Below are positions 56,992 to 64,000 of a stretch of DNA of 64,000 bases, in pieces. The notes beneath the pieces are model-generated. The model searched no databases. It saw only the letters and a program-made list of their open reading frames with translations, and had not been told where the DNA came from. The stretch is taken from assembly GCF_003967015.1 (NCBI RefSeq), contig NZ_AP017563.1, positions 62,001-126,000 of the forward strand. Reading direction: 5' to 3'. Position numbers and translations under genes: made by a program. The DNA is from Pseudanabaena sp. ABRG5-3 (lineage in GTDB: Bacteria; Cyanobacteriota; Cyanobacteriia; Pseudanabaenales; Pseudanabaenaceae). Numbering within the stretch: the first letter of the stretch is position 1; every line of letters begins with the position of its first letter.

Positions 56992-59445
56992 ATGCCGACT
57001 TATTATCTAGAAGTTGAGAAGATCGAAAGCCAATGCCGATTTCTGCTGAAATGGGGAAAAAGTCAGCGCTTACCTGTAGTAGCGATCGCCTATCCAGAAA
57101 GTCTGGCTAACAGCTATCGTGAATGGCAGACTACCTATCTCAACTACTATTGTCATGTAACCATCGGCAACTCTTTGCGGGGAAGAGTGCAGGGGAGTGG
57201 TAGTTTTTCGCTTTCTAACGTTGATTGGTATGAGAAGCTGCGCGAAGCCGAGGAAAAATTAATTCGGGAGTTAAACTTTTGGTTGCGGAGTCCAGAGCTT
57301 TATGAACTATGGGAAGAAGTGAAGCGTTCATCCCGTCTAGTATCTACTCAATCTCAATCATCAAATTTAGACGCAACACATATTGATTTACTGATTACTT
57401 GTTCCGAAGATTTGCTGTGCTTGCCTTGGGAAGCATGGAAACTACAGGATGAATTTGCGCCACTAGATACGGTACGCATTGCTAGAGCCGTTTATGCCAG
57501 CACCGAAATTTTGCCGCCTCAATCGCGTCGCCGTCCTAGGGTGCTAGCGATTTTTGGTGATGAGACAGGTTTAGATTTTCAAAACGATCGTGAAGCAATG
57601 CAGATTCTCGCTGCATTAGCCGAAATCCAGACTATTTGTTGGGATGCTGCACCATCCGATCGCGTCAATCCCAAGCAAAAAATCTGTAATGCGATCGCCG
57701 ATCCACAGGGTTGGGATATTCTCTTTTTTGCGGGACATAGTGACCAAACTAATTTAACGGGAGGGAAGCTATTAGTTGCCCCCCATAGTTCGCTGACCAT
57801 GAGCGATTTAGATCCCTATCTATTGCAAGCCAAAGAACGCGGATTACAAATTGCAATTTTCAACTCCTGTAATGGCACTGCGATCGCTACATGGCTAGTC
57901 TCTAAAGTGGGAATACCCCAAGCGATCGCCATGCGCGAACCAATCCATAATCAGGCGGCTCAAAGCTTTTTAGTCCAGTTTCTCCAAAATCTCGCGCAAC
58001 ATAAAGATGCTCACACAGCGATGTTTGAAGCCTGTCGCTATTTACAAGAAGAACGCTTAACCTTTCCTTCCGTTTACCTCATTCCTTCCCTATTTCGCCA
58101 TCCTGATGCGCCTTTATTTAAAATCCCTCCTAAAGGGATCAAGGGCTTGATCAGGCGAGTTTTGCCAACACCATTACAGGCGATCGCCCTTAGTACTTTG
58201 CTAGCGGCTAGCCTCATGCCATCCTTACAGGAATGGATGCTAGATCGGCGCGTCTGGCTACAGGCAATCTATCGCCAACAAACCCAGCGCGTTCCTCAGA
58301 AATCTCCTCCCGTCCTTTTAGTGCAAATCGATGAGGCATCTTTACAAAAAGCCGCGATCGCTGATCCGCATCCCATGGATCGGCATTATCTAGCCCAATT
58401 AGTCGATCGCCTAGCTAGTCAAAACGCTCAGATTGTCGGTATTGACTATTTGCTCGATCGCTCCCATCGCAATCGCAAGGATGGCAAAGATGATGGACAA
58501 AGCGATCGCACTAGCGATCGCATTTTAGGACAGGCGATCCAAAATGCTGTAGATGCACAAAAAAACAGCAAAAATGGAACTTGGTTTGTTTTGGCTTCTG
58601 TCTATAGCGAAGGTAATTGGCTAGAGACTTTGCCCGAAATTGCTAGCAAAAATGGCAGCATCGATGGTCATATTCATATGTCGGTGCAGTATTTACCCCT
58701 AGTGCAAGCTGATGTTCCTAAATTGCCCTTTTCCTACCTATTGGCAGGTATCCATCGAGTGAGAGCATTGCAAAGATCGCCTTTAAATCAAACCGATAAT
58801 CTATTCACGCAAATATCTGACATCCTCAATTCGCAGGGCAAGACTTTCCGCAGTTTGCTCGATCCTAAAGCACAAATGCTGCCAATCACAGATTTTGCTC
58901 AAGATAAATTTAGTCAAGCATGGTTCCATCCGATTGTCGATTTTTCGATTCCACCCGATCGCATTTATCAAACAATTCCTGCATGGCAATTGTTACAGGA
59001 ACCGCCCAAAGTCTCCGACTCACAAATCATTCTCATTTCCGCTAACTATTCAGAGGCGGGAGTATTTAAGCAGGGTGAGGACTCCTTCTCACAACCATCA
59101 GCAATTCATTATTGGCTCCAGCAATCGTCATCAACTAAACAGAGGGAAAGCTATACAGGCGGAGAGGTACAAGCCTATGCAATCCATCATTTTCTCCGCG
59201 ATCGCTATGTAATTCCTGTTCCCTATGCTTGGATGATGATTGTATTTCTGGCAGGTGGGGCAATTCTCGTCAGCTTTTGGCAACCGCGATCACATCGACA
59301 GGTTTATCTTGTGCTGACTATAACCCTCAGCCTATATACCTTAGTCAGTATCGAGGTTTATATTTCGGGAGGCTTGCTTTTACCGATTGTCTTTCCTGCG
59401 ATTGTTGCGATCATTTATTGTCTACCTAGGTTGACAAAAGCCTAG
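56992..59445 (+). CDS. CHAT-CHASE2 membrane protein
   Basis: 817 aa. Residues about 130-375 are a CHAT domain (caspase-like): LLITCSEDLLCLPWEAWKLQ, ILFFAGHSDQTNLTGGKLLV (His249) and IAIFNSCNGTAIATWLVSKV (Cys293) give the His-Cys dyad. A membrane helix (about 396-415) precedes an extracytoplasmic CHASE2 sensor (about 435-730: VLLVQIDEASLQKAAIADPH; IVGIDYLLDRS; VDFSIPPDRIY). Three membrane helices close the chain (WMMIVFLAGGAILVSFW; VYLVLTITLSLYTLVSIEVY; GGLLLPIVFPAIVAIIYCL). So an outside signal could control a cytosolic caspase-like protease. Third gene of the sigma-like/DUF1822 operon; the stop is followed by a convergent antitoxin gene. Confidence 0.88.
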   Translation: MPTYYLEVEKIESQCRFLLKWGKSQRLPVVAIAYPESLANSYREWQTTYLNYYCHVTIGNSLRGRVQGSGSFSLSNVDWYEKLREAEEKLIRELNFWLRSPELYELWEEVKRSSRLVSTQSQSSNLDATHIDLLITCSEDLLCLPWEAWKLQDEFAPLDTVRIARAVYASTEILPPQSRRRPRVLAIFGDETGLDFQNDREAMQILAALAEIQTICWDAAPSDRVNPKQKICNAIADPQGWDILFFAGHSDQTNLTGGKLLVAPHSSLTMSDLDPYLLQAKERGLQIAIFNSCNGTAIATWLVSKVGIPQAIAMREPIHNQAAQSFLVQFLQNLAQHKDAHTAMFEACRYLQEERLTFPSVYLIPSLFRHPDAPLFKIPPKGIKGLIRRVLPTPLQAIALSTLLAASLMPSLQEWMLDRRVWLQAIYRQQTQRVPQKSPPVLLVQIDEASLQKAAIADPHPMDRHYLAQLVDRLASQNAQIVGIDYLLDRSHRNRKDGKDDGQSDRTSDRILGQAIQNAVDAQKNSKNGTWFVLASVYSEGNWLETLPEIASKNGSIDGHIHMSVQYLPLVQADVPKLPFSYLLAGIHRVRALQRSPLNQTDNLFTQISDILNSQGKTFRSLLDPKAQMLPITDFAQDKFSQAWFHPIVDFSIPPDRIYQTIPAWQLLQEPPKVSDSQIILISANYSEAGVFKQGEDSFSQPSAIHYWLQQSSSTKQRESYTGGEVQAYAIHHFLRDRYVIPVPYAWMMIVFLAGGAILVSFWQPRSHRQVYLVLTITLSLYTLVSIEVYISGGLLLPIVFPAIVAIIYCLPRLTKA

Positions 59446-59489: not shown

Positions 59490-59762
59490 TTACAAATCCT
59501 TCCATGCTTCATTTTCTTCTTCGCTAAGCCAGTCTTTTGATAATGAAGATTCGAGTAATGGAGGTTGATCTCTCGTTTCCATAAAGTCATCTGAGAAGAG
59601 ATCGCGGCTATTCCAAAGGGTTTGCCAAGGGTTATTTTTGGAAATTAGCATGATCGCGTTGCCAACTTTTTTGATATAGACTTCTTCGCCGACTAGTTGA
59701 AAGCCGTCTGGTAGTATGGCTAGTTGTTCGTTGCCTTGCATTCTGAGTTTGGCTGTGTTCAT
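59490..59762 (-). CDS. VapB/VagC-type antitoxin without partner
   Basis: 90 aa: AbrB-like DNA-binding start (MNTAKLRMQGNEQLAILPDG; EEVYIKKVGNAIMLISKNNP) and the family's WQTLWNSRDLFSDDFMETRD segment, then an acidic tail. Its gene neighbour should be a PIN toxin, but downstream is the opposite-strand CHAT-CHASE2 gene. It starts 13 nt after the NACHT-associated gene. Confidence 0.75.
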   Translation of the reverse strand: MNTAKLRMQGNEQLAILPDGFQLVGEEVYIKKVGNAIMLISKNNPWQTLWNSRDLFSDDFMETRDQPPLLESSLSKDWLSEEENEAWKDL

Positions 59763-59774
59763 GGGTTTGTCCTC

Positions 59775-61145
59775 CTAGTTGTATTCTAAGTCAATTCTTC
59801 TAAGCCAATCTTTTACTTCCTTTGTGAGTTGTTGGGTGCTTTTTTCTCCTGTGAATGGACATATGTGGATTGAATCTGTTAGGTTTTGGCAGAGTTGATT
59901 AATCGCCTCATTAGCACTTTTGCCATAAAGGGCGATCGCTAATTTCTTGACTTCAAGAATGCGCTTGAGGTTAATTAGTTCTCGTTTCAGGTTAGAGACT
60001 CGATTGATTTCTGGAATCTTACGCCCTAACGAGTCAAATATTTTGATGGCGATTTCTTCAGCGATTATATTAAGATCGCTTTCTTGTTCGAGATGGCGGA
60101 TATCGACAACTAAACAGCGTATTTCGGGATGCTCAGTATTGCGATCGAGTTCTTTTTGAATATCCTCACAACTAACAAATTGTGTCTCCAAATTATATAT
60201 AACATCATTTGAAGAATGCCATACCTGATAGAATCTTTCATAGCTAAGATTTTTAGCACAATTACAGAGAAGTAGATAACAATAACTATAATCAAATTCT
60301 TGATTTTCATACTCAATAGTACTATTTAAGCTTTTCAGAGCTATCTCAAAAAGCTCTTCATGCGTTGTATCTTCATAATCAATTTCTATGCTAGTTGTCG
60401 GATCGATGTCTACAATTTTATCTTTTTTCAAAATTTGCAAAATTGTATTGAATGAGTCTGAATGAGAATAATTCTTACTCCCATCATGATTTTTAACATA
60501 AATTGGAAGATTTGCAACATGACTAATTATTTGTTCACGAGGTTTGTAAATCAATTTAATTTCTATTTCCTTAGTATCAGATTCTAAGCATAACTCAGGA
60601 TTAAATTCTTCTAAAATTTTTGAATGTTCTAATTCTATTTTTAGGTTCTTGGATGTTTTAGATTTTATTGAATTTGATAGAGATATATTAGACTTAAAAC
60701 TACTAATGTATCTGGAAAAATAAAAATTCATCCACTTAAATGATTCAAGAGTGATTATTAATTTGTCTGGATTTTTAATAAATAAGTTTTCAAGAAGATA
60801 AATAGATTTGTTGCAATTTGAACTATATATGAGTTTGCTCAGTATAGGATCTTCTATATTGCCAAAGACAGAATATCTAGAATCTAGATCTAATTTAAAA
60901 ATAAATTCAGTAAATAACTTAATTAGGTCTGAATCTTTTGTAAAAATATTTCCACAAATATTTATTAGCTGTAGTGGCATTACTATATTTTGATTGAAAG
61001 GTGATTTGATTGCTAGCTTCAATAAATATTTAAAAGAGATTGTACACGCATCCTCAGTATTTATATGAAGCAAGAAATCACAGATATCTATAATAATTTC
61101 TTCTGAGTCAATATTAGTCAATAATTTTGCAACTTTATCAATCAC
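59775..61145 (-). CDS. C-terminal part of split HTH-NACHT protein
   Basis: 456 aa from a GTG at 61145, in the same reading frame as the NACHT gene upstream and separated from it by only a TAA and nine sense codons (KLSSISSKI). Helical repeats (LTNIDSEEIIIDICDFLLHI; YLLENLFIKNPDKLIITLES), then an alpha-beta domain near the end: EIRCLVVDIRHLEQESDLNI, LGRKIPEINRVSNLKRELIN, VKKLAIALYGKSANEAINQL. Very AT-rich compared with the rest of the window. It may be translated from the GTG as a separate subunit, or the whole is a broken gene. Confidence 0.7.
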   Translation of the reverse strand: MIDKVAKLLTNIDSEEIIIDICDFLLHINTEDACTISFKYLLKLAIKSPFNQNIVMPLQLINICGNIFTKDSDLIKLFTEFIFKLDLDSRYSVFGNIEDPILSKLIYSSNCNKSIYLLENLFIKNPDKLIITLESFKWMNFYFSRYISSFKSNISLSNSIKSKTSKNLKIELEHSKILEEFNPELCLESDTKEIEIKLIYKPREQIISHVANLPIYVKNHDGSKNYSHSDSFNTILQILKKDKIVDIDPTTSIEIDYEDTTHEELFEIALKSLNSTIEYENQEFDYSYCYLLLCNCAKNLSYERFYQVWHSSNDVIYNLETQFVSCEDIQKELDRNTEHPEIRCLVVDIRHLEQESDLNIIAEEIAIKIFDSLGRKIPEINRVSNLKRELINLKRILEVKKLAIALYGKSANEAINQLCQNLTDSIHICPFTGEKSTQQLTKEVKDWLRRIDLEYN

Positions 61146-61172
61146 TATTTTTGATGAAATACTACTAAGCTT

Positions 61173-62999
61173 TTACAACGCTAATTCCGAAATGGAGTAC
61201 CATTCACGTTTTTTGGAATATTGATTGAAAGTCCCAAAAGCCCATTCAATTATTTGATCTAAAATATTGTCAAACAGAACTATATTGTTAGACTCAAACG
61301 CAATATCTAATGCTATAAAATGTCCCAAATTATTGTAATCATTTGATTTGGCACAACCATCATCAAATACTATTAACTTTTCTATCAAAAGGCTGGATTG
61401 ATTATTTGTATTGGGATTTCTAGATATACCAGACCAAAGTAAAACTACTGGATTCCACACTGGTTCAAAAATTCGATAACATTTTTCTTTGACTGGTTTA
61501 TCGATATGATCGCGAGGTAAAAAGAAATCCCAAGCATCGATCGCTAAAGCAGCAAAATATTCTTTAAATGAATCATGAAGGAAATCATAAACTTGCTCAT
61601 ATTCATCTATTGGCTTTAGCCATCCAAGTTCGAGAGCCTTGTCAAGCCTATCACCTAGCTTTTCCTTTACTTCAGCATTCGTTAATTGACTTTGAGTATC
61701 TATTGCTTTTATTGCCAATTCCCCTAAAGACTTAACTAAATCTGCATCAAATCGATCTACTGTAATCTTCCGCGTGTACTGTCTTTTAATAAATTGATCG
61801 AATAATTCTGCTTTATTTGTAGCAAAAGCAAAGTTTGATTCGGATTCCTCATAAATAGAACAAAGCAATGATAGGTGAAGGGGATATTTAATTAGCTCGT
61901 TAATACGATGTCTATTAGCTTTTTGAAGTTCTGTCTTGAGAAGGTTCGCAGAGTCTGAATCATCACCAAACCAAGCATCTATAAAATTACTGGGCTGATC
62001 GGAATTATAGCCAACACATTCATAAATACCATAGCCAAAACTTGCAAAATCTGCTTTGTCTGAGTCCCAACGATTTTTACGACAAGTTAAAGCTATTTTA
62101 GGTTTGCTTAGCCAAACATCAAACTGACCGATAACGATATGCGCTTTATCAGGAATATCCTCAAGACCATCTAACAACAACCAAACACAGCCATCTTTGA
62201 GCTTGTTATCAAATTCTTGTTCCCATTCATTTTTGGCAATATTAGAACCTTTAAGCCATTCATCTATAATATATTCCCTGAGATATTCTAGCTTATCTCT
62301 TACTTCTTTTAAAGAAATCCAAATTACAAGATTGTTAGGCTGTTTGAGCAATTCATAGCCGATTTGCAATAAAAGAGTAGTTTTTCCCGATCCCGCTTCA
62401 CCAATAATTGCTAATCTTTGCCCGTATTTCTTAGAACTTCCCTCTAGTAAACCATCACGAATAATTACATCAAGAAAATCCTGTTGACGTTCATATCTTT
62501 GAGTACTCTTATACTCTTCAGTTTGTTGCTTACTTGTATTTTTAGATTGCGAACTTTCCTTTTTTACCTTTTCCAAAAAATCCAAAGGTACAAACGTTCG
62601 ATCAATATTGCCAAAATCTAAACGATTATCCCCTATAACTAGATCGACATTCCGCTTTTTCCAATGATCTAACCTGTCACAACAAACTTTATGCCAATTA
62701 AAGATTTTGTTGTCAACATCTTTCAAACTTTGTAAAGCAGAAAATTCGTTAGGCTGAAACCCTAACACTTGGGTCAATGCTCTAAATGAACTTTCGCCCA
62801 TTGGCGTTTTTCTATTAAGGAAACGTTTAGCAACCGATAGAGAAACGTTTGCCTGCTTCGCTAAATATTCCTGAGTCCAAATTTCCTTCTCTCTTTCATT
62901 AGATAACTCTAATTTTTTTGATTGAGAGATTCTTTGCTGAACCTTGTCTAGCTCTTCTACAGTCAATATAAATTTGTGTTTTTTATCTGATGTAGGCAT
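61173..62999 (-). CDS. HTH-NACHT STAND NTPase, N-terminal part
   Basis: 608 aa. HTH-like start (about 40-85: EIWTQEYLAKQANVSLSVAK), the segment WHKVCCDRLDHWKKRN and VPLDFLEKVKK common to cyanobacterial NACHT proteins, then the NACHT domain: Walker A IIGEAGSGKTTLLLQI (about 198-213), Walker B VWLLLDGLEDIPDK (about 272-285) and IALTCRKNRWD (sensor). After it, YDFLHDSFKEYFAALAID. Helical C-terminus, ending at a TAA that may be a point mutation. Companion or split piece at 59775. STAND NTPases act in defence or cell-death signalling; role here inferred. Confidence 0.85.
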   Translation of the reverse strand: MPTSDKKHKFILTVEELDKVQQRISQSKKLELSNEREKEIWTQEYLAKQANVSLSVAKRFLNRKTPMGESSFRALTQVLGFQPNEFSALQSLKDVDNKIFNWHKVCCDRLDHWKKRNVDLVIGDNRLDFGNIDRTFVPLDFLEKVKKESSQSKNTSKQQTEEYKSTQRYERQQDFLDVIIRDGLLEGSSKKYGQRLAIIGEAGSGKTTLLLQIGYELLKQPNNLVIWISLKEVRDKLEYLREYIIDEWLKGSNIAKNEWEQEFDNKLKDGCVWLLLDGLEDIPDKAHIVIGQFDVWLSKPKIALTCRKNRWDSDKADFASFGYGIYECVGYNSDQPSNFIDAWFGDDSDSANLLKTELQKANRHRINELIKYPLHLSLLCSIYEESESNFAFATNKAELFDQFIKRQYTRKITVDRFDADLVKSLGELAIKAIDTQSQLTNAEVKEKLGDRLDKALELGWLKPIDEYEQVYDFLHDSFKEYFAALAIDAWDFFLPRDHIDKPVKEKCYRIFEPVWNPVVLLWSGISRNPNTNNQSSLLIEKLIVFDDGCAKSNDYNNLGHFIALDIAFESNNIVLFDNILDQIIEWAFGTFNQYSKKREWYSISELAL

Positions 63000-63313: not shown

Positions 63314-64000
63314 ATGTACCAAAACTACAGCATTAACGAGCTATACCAACTCCTCAAACAAATCGAAACCACTATCGACAAATACAACCTAGACCCCAAA
63401 CCATTTATGGAAAAATTGGGCTTTCAGCAACCAGTCCCCGAAACCGAAATTGTCTTTGAGAAAACTGGCGGACGGTTCCATCTCTTCAAAGCTCTCGAAG
63501 AAGCCAAAGAACGAATCGTGATCAAATGTCCTTGGGCAAGCGATCGCGCCATCGACAACGACCTCATGCTAAGGCTCAACTATGCCCTCGACCAAGGCGT
63601 ACAAATCGATCTCGGCTGGGGCTACCAATATGACCTCGGCACAATCATCAAAAAAGACCGTCACTGCAATTTCACCTTCACCACCGAAGGACAATATCGC
63701 TATAGTGCCATGTCTAAACTCTTCCAACTCCAAAAAAGATATAGCGATCGCCTCCGCCTCAAGCTCACAGGCGGACATAGCAAATACTTTGTCTGCGATC
63801 GCCAGTTCGCCTATGTCGGCAGTCACAACATCCTCAGTGCCACCATTCCCAATCTTAAAATTGCCTATCCTGACCTCCAAGGCGATGAAACAGGCACAAT
63901 TCACCGAAATCCAGAAATCATTCAAAAACTGATTACCCGCTACGACCAAGCGATCGATCTCACAGCTTCCCTAACGCCTCAAAACATGAGATTGCGTGCC
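63314..64000 (+). CDS. PLD-like nuclease/phosphodiesterase-family protein (3' end outside window)
   Basis: 229 residues visible, from an ATG with AGGGAAA upstream. RFHLFKALEEAKERIVIKCP then YALDQGVQIDLGWGYQYDLG match the first strands of a PLD fold; GGHSKYFVCDRQFAYVGSHN holds an HxK(x)4D motif of the PLD superfamily, with the following GSHNIL turn. The N-terminal about 55 residues are helical. Divergent from the NACHT gene, 315 bp away. Could be a nuclease effector or a phospholipase-like enzyme; one HKD motif is visible so far. Confidence 0.72.
   Translation, partial: MYQNYSINELYQLLKQIETTIDKYNLDPKPFMEKLGFQQPVPETEIVFEKTGGRFHLFKALEEAKERIVIKCPWASDRAIDNDLMLRLNYALDQGVQIDLGWGYQYDLGTIIKKDRHCNFTFTTEGQYRYSAMSKLFQLQKRYSDRLRLKLTGGHSKYFVCDRQFAYVGSHNILSATIPNLKIAYPDLQGDETGTIHRNPEIIQKLITRYDQAIDLTASLTPQNMRLRA

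Follow-up and report, generated by a model that had tools for sequence, protein, structure and literature searches.

A probable nonsense allele of an NLR-related NACHT defence receptor gene in Pseudanabaena, with a 3' tail that recurs behind unrelated genes

In the part of its published description drawn on here, bNACHT25 has a central NACHT NTPase, an N-terminal module and a C-terminal sensor region, with a PD-(D/E)XK nuclease as its effector and NCH1 at its C-terminus (PMC12169576). The gene examined here, from a 64,000-nucleotide stretch of Pseudanabaena sp. ABRG5-3 DNA (the window), has the same central NTPase flanked by an N-terminal module and a C-terminal sensor region. The three are not encoded on one chain, however, as an in-frame TAA (61175-61173) interrupts them. 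The intact protein would run from an HTH-like N-terminus through the NACHT NTPase and a fast-evolving alpha-helical sensor to two C-terminal domains, NCC-H and NCAB1. By analogy with the bNACHT proteins, the sensor would recognise infection, the NACHT module would switch and oligomerise, and the N-terminus would act; the gene probably encodes an anti-phage immune receptor.

The window lies on a contig of 134,662 bp in a genome of eight contigs, the biggest seen being 4,796,642 bp; these are the lengths published for plasmid ABRG53c and for the main genome of this strain (PMC5805894). By the list of open reading frames and their translation, the minus strand between 59775 and 62999 is a single reading frame of 1074 codons whose sole internal stop is the TAA. 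The N-terminal part (61173..62999, minus strand) consists of 608 codons plus the TAA, starts with ATG, and holds the HTH-like N-terminus, the NACHT/STAND NTPase and the beginning of the sensor. The TAA itself (61173..61175) is followed by nine sense codons (61146..61172) and then by the C-terminal part (59775..61145), a GTG-initiated frame of 456 aa that holds the variable helical sensor, NCC-H and NCAB1. Same-frame translation thus agrees with the preliminary description, which had proposed this order of frames and a read-through product of about 1074 aa.

After the TAA the frame stays open for 465 codons, counting the nine and those from GTG 61145 onward, in a stretch of 70% A+T whose composition predicts stops at 8.2% of codons. 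At that composition a run of 464 codons free of stops would arise with a probability of about 5e-18, and the remaining five frames of the stretch contain 22-65 stops each, with a longest run of 76 codons, so the downstream open frame is not due to chance. A frame of this length, with an in-frame GTG shortly after the stop, is also what would be expected of a functional two-chain receptor, in which an HTH-NACHT chain works with a separate sensor/NCC-H/NCAB1 chain made from GTG 61145 by re-initiation 27 nt past the stop. By eye, no Shine-Dalgarno-like stretch is visible before this GTG, and none before ATG 62999 either. Between 59400 and 63400, promoter-like sites show no excess (13, versus a shuffle mean of 15.2), and terminator-like sites are somewhat commoner than in shuffled sequence (5, versus a mean of 2.1, sd 1.6).

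The 608-aa part has the NACHT-type P-loop NTPase of bacterial NACHT/STAND proteins, matching Pfam nSTAND_NTPase5 at 42.3 bits (cut-off 34) and Pfam NACHT at 31.6 bits (cut-off 26.7), with a P-loop, GEAGSGKTT, read from the sequence at about residue 200. Of the earlier name 'HTH-NACHT protein', the NACHT half is over its cut-off and the HTH half below it, the HTH-like N-terminus (residues ~35-89) scoring 18.8 bits for HTH_31 against a Pfam cut-off of 27. The post-stop frame matches NCC-H (33.6 bits, cut-off 27) and, borderline at its cut-off of 27, NCAB1 (27.0 bits); both are NACHT C-terminal domains by Pfam description, and with both the gene belongs to an NCC-H/NCAB1-type NACHT subfamily (Pfam names).

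To place the interruption among its relatives, we compared the two parts across genomes. The C-terminal part was matched in 26 of 145 genomes and the N-terminal part in 22 of the 26 genomes of the genus, many of them in the NTPase alone (ABRG5-3 is included in both counts). Twelve loci with strong matches were fetched for comparison, the ABRG5-3 plasmid locus not being counted, and ten of them hold full-length single frames of 985-1361 aa that match both halves. Among these is a paralogue from the ABRG5-3 chromosome, an uninterrupted frame of 1353 aa. The C-terminal module is 47-79% identical to those of the ten intact relatives. The nearest, in genome G003 (contig C18, 1168 aa), is 70% identical in the NACHT region and 69% in the C-terminal module and differs from the plasmid allele in sensor and N-terminus; the chromosomal paralogue is 34% identical in the NACHT region (by BLAST) and 47% in the module. 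NCC-H scores above its cut-off in nine of the ten relatives, on one chain with NACHT in each, L073 being the one without an NCC-H match. NCAB1 was found in four at E <= 0.001, with none above the Pfam cut-off in one scan and three in another. The N-termini vary, with an HTH domain above cut-off in three and a Swt1-like HEPN domain in one.

In a local alignment of the ten full-length relatives, the decayed locus L020 and locus L076, which starts at a contig end yet is continuous across the junction region, an amino acid occupies the stop column in 12 of 12 rows. A first, global alignment placed that column in a gappy region; the column-level statement relies on the local alignment and on a profile test. 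In that test a profile made from 11 relatives (L020 excluded) scored 113.5 bits with 60 post-stop residues and 106.3 bits without them, and none of 300 shuffles of those residues reached 113.5 (maximum 111.2); the gain is modest because the region evolves fast. The preliminary description had looked to alignment with full-length homologues, and to whether most of them stop at this point and carry a separate second gene, to settle the matter: all ten full-length relatives are continuous with a sense residue at the stop column, and none is split at the junction or has a second gene in its place. This argues against the two-chain receptor. Two separate genes by design were rejected as well, no full-length relative (0/10) being split here.

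A close allele of the sensor (C-terminal part, residues 1-291) was not found in 388 genomes of the class, where the search returned, besides the query itself, two weak matches, both with internal stops. Because the stop lies at the start of this hypervariable sensor, for which the search gave no close allele, the ancestral sequence at the stop is not seen directly. A contig search with the C-terminal part confirmed no relative, a search that is insensitive, since a DNA pattern later found some there, and a plasmid collection gave no DNA match.

A structure model of the read-through product, built from six sequences (mean pLDDT 52), puts the stop, as residue 609, at the start of the sensor and within a predicted helix, 599-613. 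Block pLDDT values are 66 and 72, in a model of low-to-moderate confidence, and residues 590-600, just ahead of the helix, fall under 50. A cut inside a predicted helix rather than between domains also speaks against two functional chains, with the modest confidence that the model allows. A junction lying between domains was rejected because local alignment and model alike put it inside a helix. A sequence search for solved structures gave none for either half; in a Foldseek search with the read-through model, which is of low confidence, the best solved matches were NLRP9, NLRP7, NLRP2 and NLRC4, at TM-scores of about 0.2.

The TAA might instead be a sequencing or assembly error, given that the genome was read to an average depth of 24.0 by a combination of 454 and Illumina sequencing (PMC5805894). 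No second sequence of the stretch was met, in collections of which some may omit this genome's records. Errors of 454 sequencing are typically errors in homopolymer length and hence shift the frame. Here, in contrast, the frame and the helix pattern run on unshifted through the stop, and Illumina reads were also used. A substitution error is unlikely, and we regard an error of either kind as very improbable.

The extension of frame and homology past the stop would equally be seen if programmed stop-codon read-through or a suppressor tRNA yielded the full 1074-aa chain. Against this, TAA is an ordinary stop here, being the commonest in the window, where 20 of the 35 stop-to-stop frames with 250 codons or more (this frame included) terminate in it. 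The RNA fold around the stop is not unusual (z 0.11 for 131 nt), no Rfam family matches the locus, and the stop is conserved in none of the ten full-length relatives. A tRNA scan of the 64,000-nt window gave none. We rejected recoding, as no stimulatory structure was found and the stop is not conserved; a full-length product made through the TAA is scarcely credible.

The state of the downstream part bears on how old the lesion is. No second lesion occurs in the 465 post-stop codons, and of the 40 C-terminal-module columns that do not vary among the other ten, only 2 have been lost; leaving the others out in turn, the same count gives 0-3 for intact relatives and 13 for the paralogue. This retention of conserved residues over an open frame speaks for two chains, and it counts against simple loss, as a second chain still in use would look alike. 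Lineage-specific codon changes point slightly the other way. The ratio of amino-acid to silent changes is 15:5 in the ABRG5-3 allele, as compared with 13:12 and 5:11 in two intact alleles (15:5 versus the pooled 18:23, Fisher p = 0.03, on few changes), and pairwise dN/dS in the module is 0.38 and 0.47 between ABRG5-3 and those two alleles but 0.23 between the two themselves. The downstream part is thus clean, with amino-acid changes that weakly hint at relaxed constraint, and a recent loss fits this combination better than long decay or strong maintenance. That amino-acid changes are slightly over-represented in the C-terminal module also tells against the two-chain receptor, which we consider improbable.

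Since the relatives are single-frame and the profile continues through the junction, we infer that one long NACHT (NLR-like) chain gained a nonsense codon. Of the four explanations put forward in the preliminary description (nonsense mutation, sequencing error, read-through and a stable two-subunit form), the first is the best supported, by the continuous relatives and by homology through the stop. We give a probability of about 0.85 to the reading that the locus carries a genuine nonsense allele of a bacterial NACHT defence receptor, NLR-related and made as a single chain; the mutation is most likely ordinary, fairly recent and inactivating. The main product would be the 608-aa chain, with the NTPase and without the sensor and C-terminal module, and it is probably inactive. 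That the downstream frame is still clean may reflect how recent the loss is, or some C-terminal chain may be made by weak re-initiation.

Broken relatives are not rare. In a scan for NCAB1 across 291 genomes of the class, with at most 13 candidates scored per genome, 23 of the 43 matches listed lie in open frames of at least 800 codons, and the other 20 lie in shorter frames, among them the ABRG5-3 allele and numerous partial tails. Of six such short-frame or broken places that were fetched, three are described here. G239 has a NACHT-like frame of 728 aa followed by a second frame whose listed start is 380 nt past the end of the first, for which a two-gene form and a frame change are both conceivable; G045 has transposase-like frames inside (by eye); and G039, on a 4.6-kb contig, is probably cut by the contig end. 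In Nostoc C057 a transposase gene lies within the locus. The remnant L077 (2350-4290, minus strand) has an HTH-like start (judged from its sequence), a PD-(D/E)XK nuclease gene and then 145 aa of NACHT C-terminus, and the middle of the receptor gene seems to have been replaced. The nuclease gene is the PADLOC candidate PDC-S26. In other cyanobacteria NCAB1 tails occur several times in a row, at L112 (from 5129) and L113 (6280-10449), the latter with genes between the tails that look PIN-domain-like in sequence.

Directly downstream of the interrupted gene lies a gene for a VapB-like antitoxin (59490..59762, minus strand; 70.8 bits for NCBIfam VapBLeptosp, under its cut-off of 100). There are two conserved right borders, and the start of this gene contributes to one of them. 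Next to it, in the opposite direction, ends a gene for a CHAT-CHASE2 protein (56992-59445, plus strand), and no VapC-like frame lies between the two. At locus L019 a PIN-domain gene is found near the equivalent place of the VapB-like gene. On the other side a PLD-like gene of family F6 (63314..64000, plus strand, cut by the window end) is divergent from the NACHT gene. Across 20 Pseudanabaena tail loci (L150-L169) a recurrent arrangement is seen, with one large gene, often a defence gene, between recurring small-gene families. On the left, F6 flanks the large gene, be it NACHT or another, in 8 of the 20 loci compared, and two other left-hand families, F1 and F3, have no Pfam hit; the right side is a run of small genes that includes several of toxin-antitoxin type (PemK-like, YoeB-like, PIN, VapB-like). 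The ABRG5-3 chromosome (G000) and genome G002 have both flanks in common and different genes between.

The final ~165 bp of the NACHT gene recur behind unrelated genes in other Pseudanabaena genomes. They consist of a 38-nt DNA motif in the coding 3' end (59902..59939, minus strand) and ~125 bp after it. The motif begins at the HIP1 palindrome GCGATCGC, which is also the left border in the orphan tails. With up to 3 mismatches, the motif occurs 21 times in 17 of the 26 genomes of the genus and not at all in 12 other genomes of the family, and a reversed-pattern control gave 0. The 21 copies comprise 11 ends of full-length NACHT genes (the interrupted ABRG5-3 gene included), the remnant L077 and 9 orphans. 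The search with the C-terminal part gave 14 tail loci without a full-length gene (a weak match, G014:C35, was left out), of which 11 show the motif start (L019, L021-L024, L027-L029, L035-L037), while L020, L025 and L026 fail the filter. In 10 of these 11, all except L037, the motif follows 4-69 nt after the end of a frame on the same strand that has 150 codons or more. The ten count as five gene families, not as ten separate observations: an Eco57I-type restriction enzyme (L035, L021), RloB (L023), a Ppl-like gene (L022, L028, L029), DUF2290 (L024, L036) and an unmatched protein of 532 aa (L019, L027). The assignments of L028 and L029 come from their sequences and those of L021, L027 and L036 from clusters, the scanned piece of L021 being without a hit.

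Within the motif, the 11 coding copies are conserved at synonymous positions as well. Synonymous differences number 10 in 606 comparisons over its 12 codons, as against 59 in 276 just downstream and 175 in 534 just upstream, where codons were paired by how far they lie from the motif, with no re-alignment, so that small indels may inflate the last figure. A hairpin in the motif is a weak idea (z -1.79 in the ABRG5-3 copy, -4.90 in L072). HIP1 is an over-represented cyanobacterial palindrome whose role is debated. The window holds 94 HIP1 palindromes, a frequency at which an argument built on the palindrome by itself loses force. A search for a left-hand counterpart of the 3' tail gave none, and no matching left-hand border was seen. 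The motif may be a recombination handle, some other DNA-level signal, or the result of common descent with gene conversion.

That one tail stands behind five different, unrelated families of genes suggests a slot in which defence genes are exchanged. In such a slot NACHT receptors, the Eco57I-type enzyme, RloB, Ppl-like and DUF2290 genes would replace one another in front of the row of small genes. A tentative extension, which we hold to be possible though doubtful, is that the interrupted receptor is the spent occupant of a genus-specific defence slot, its 3' end serving as a DNA handle for whole-gene replacement and the damage being tolerated because the slot is reloaded.

On the nonsense-allele reading, the locus documents the loss of an NLR-like defence gene through one stop at the start of a fast-evolving sensor, in a strain that has kept a continuous chromosomal relative, and the two frames should be annotated as one gene. 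The 3' tail is possibly more interesting than the interrupted gene and is the part worth following. If it is truly an exchange handle, it would offer a concrete route, open to test, for the exchange of unrelated defence genes at a single site, and it might link that exchange to HIP1.

The papers listed by literature searches on NCAB1, and on NACHT with NCAB or NCC-H, were off the subject, and a search on a cyanobacterial NACHT hotspot, judged by titles and the opening of abstracts, was without result; no broader statement about the literature is meant. The G003 gene (C18) and the chromosomal paralogue resemble the plasmid allele in having a related NACHT region and C-terminal module; they differ in their continuous frames, in another N-terminus and in a sensor that cannot be aligned in detail. 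In Picosynechococcus PCC 7117, likewise, the annotation of a cyanobacterial plasmid NACHT gene gives two CDSs; its sister strain PCC 7002 has a single one of 927 codons in the same neighbourhood. The 8-nt overlap between the two CDSs of PCC 7117, unlike the in-frame stop of ABRG5-3, suggests a change of frame. Compared with bNACHT25, finally, the family of the ABRG5-3 gene has HTH N-termini in some members, a HEPN domain in one and NCC-H/NCAB1 C-termini, and the ABRG5-3 allele is interrupted.
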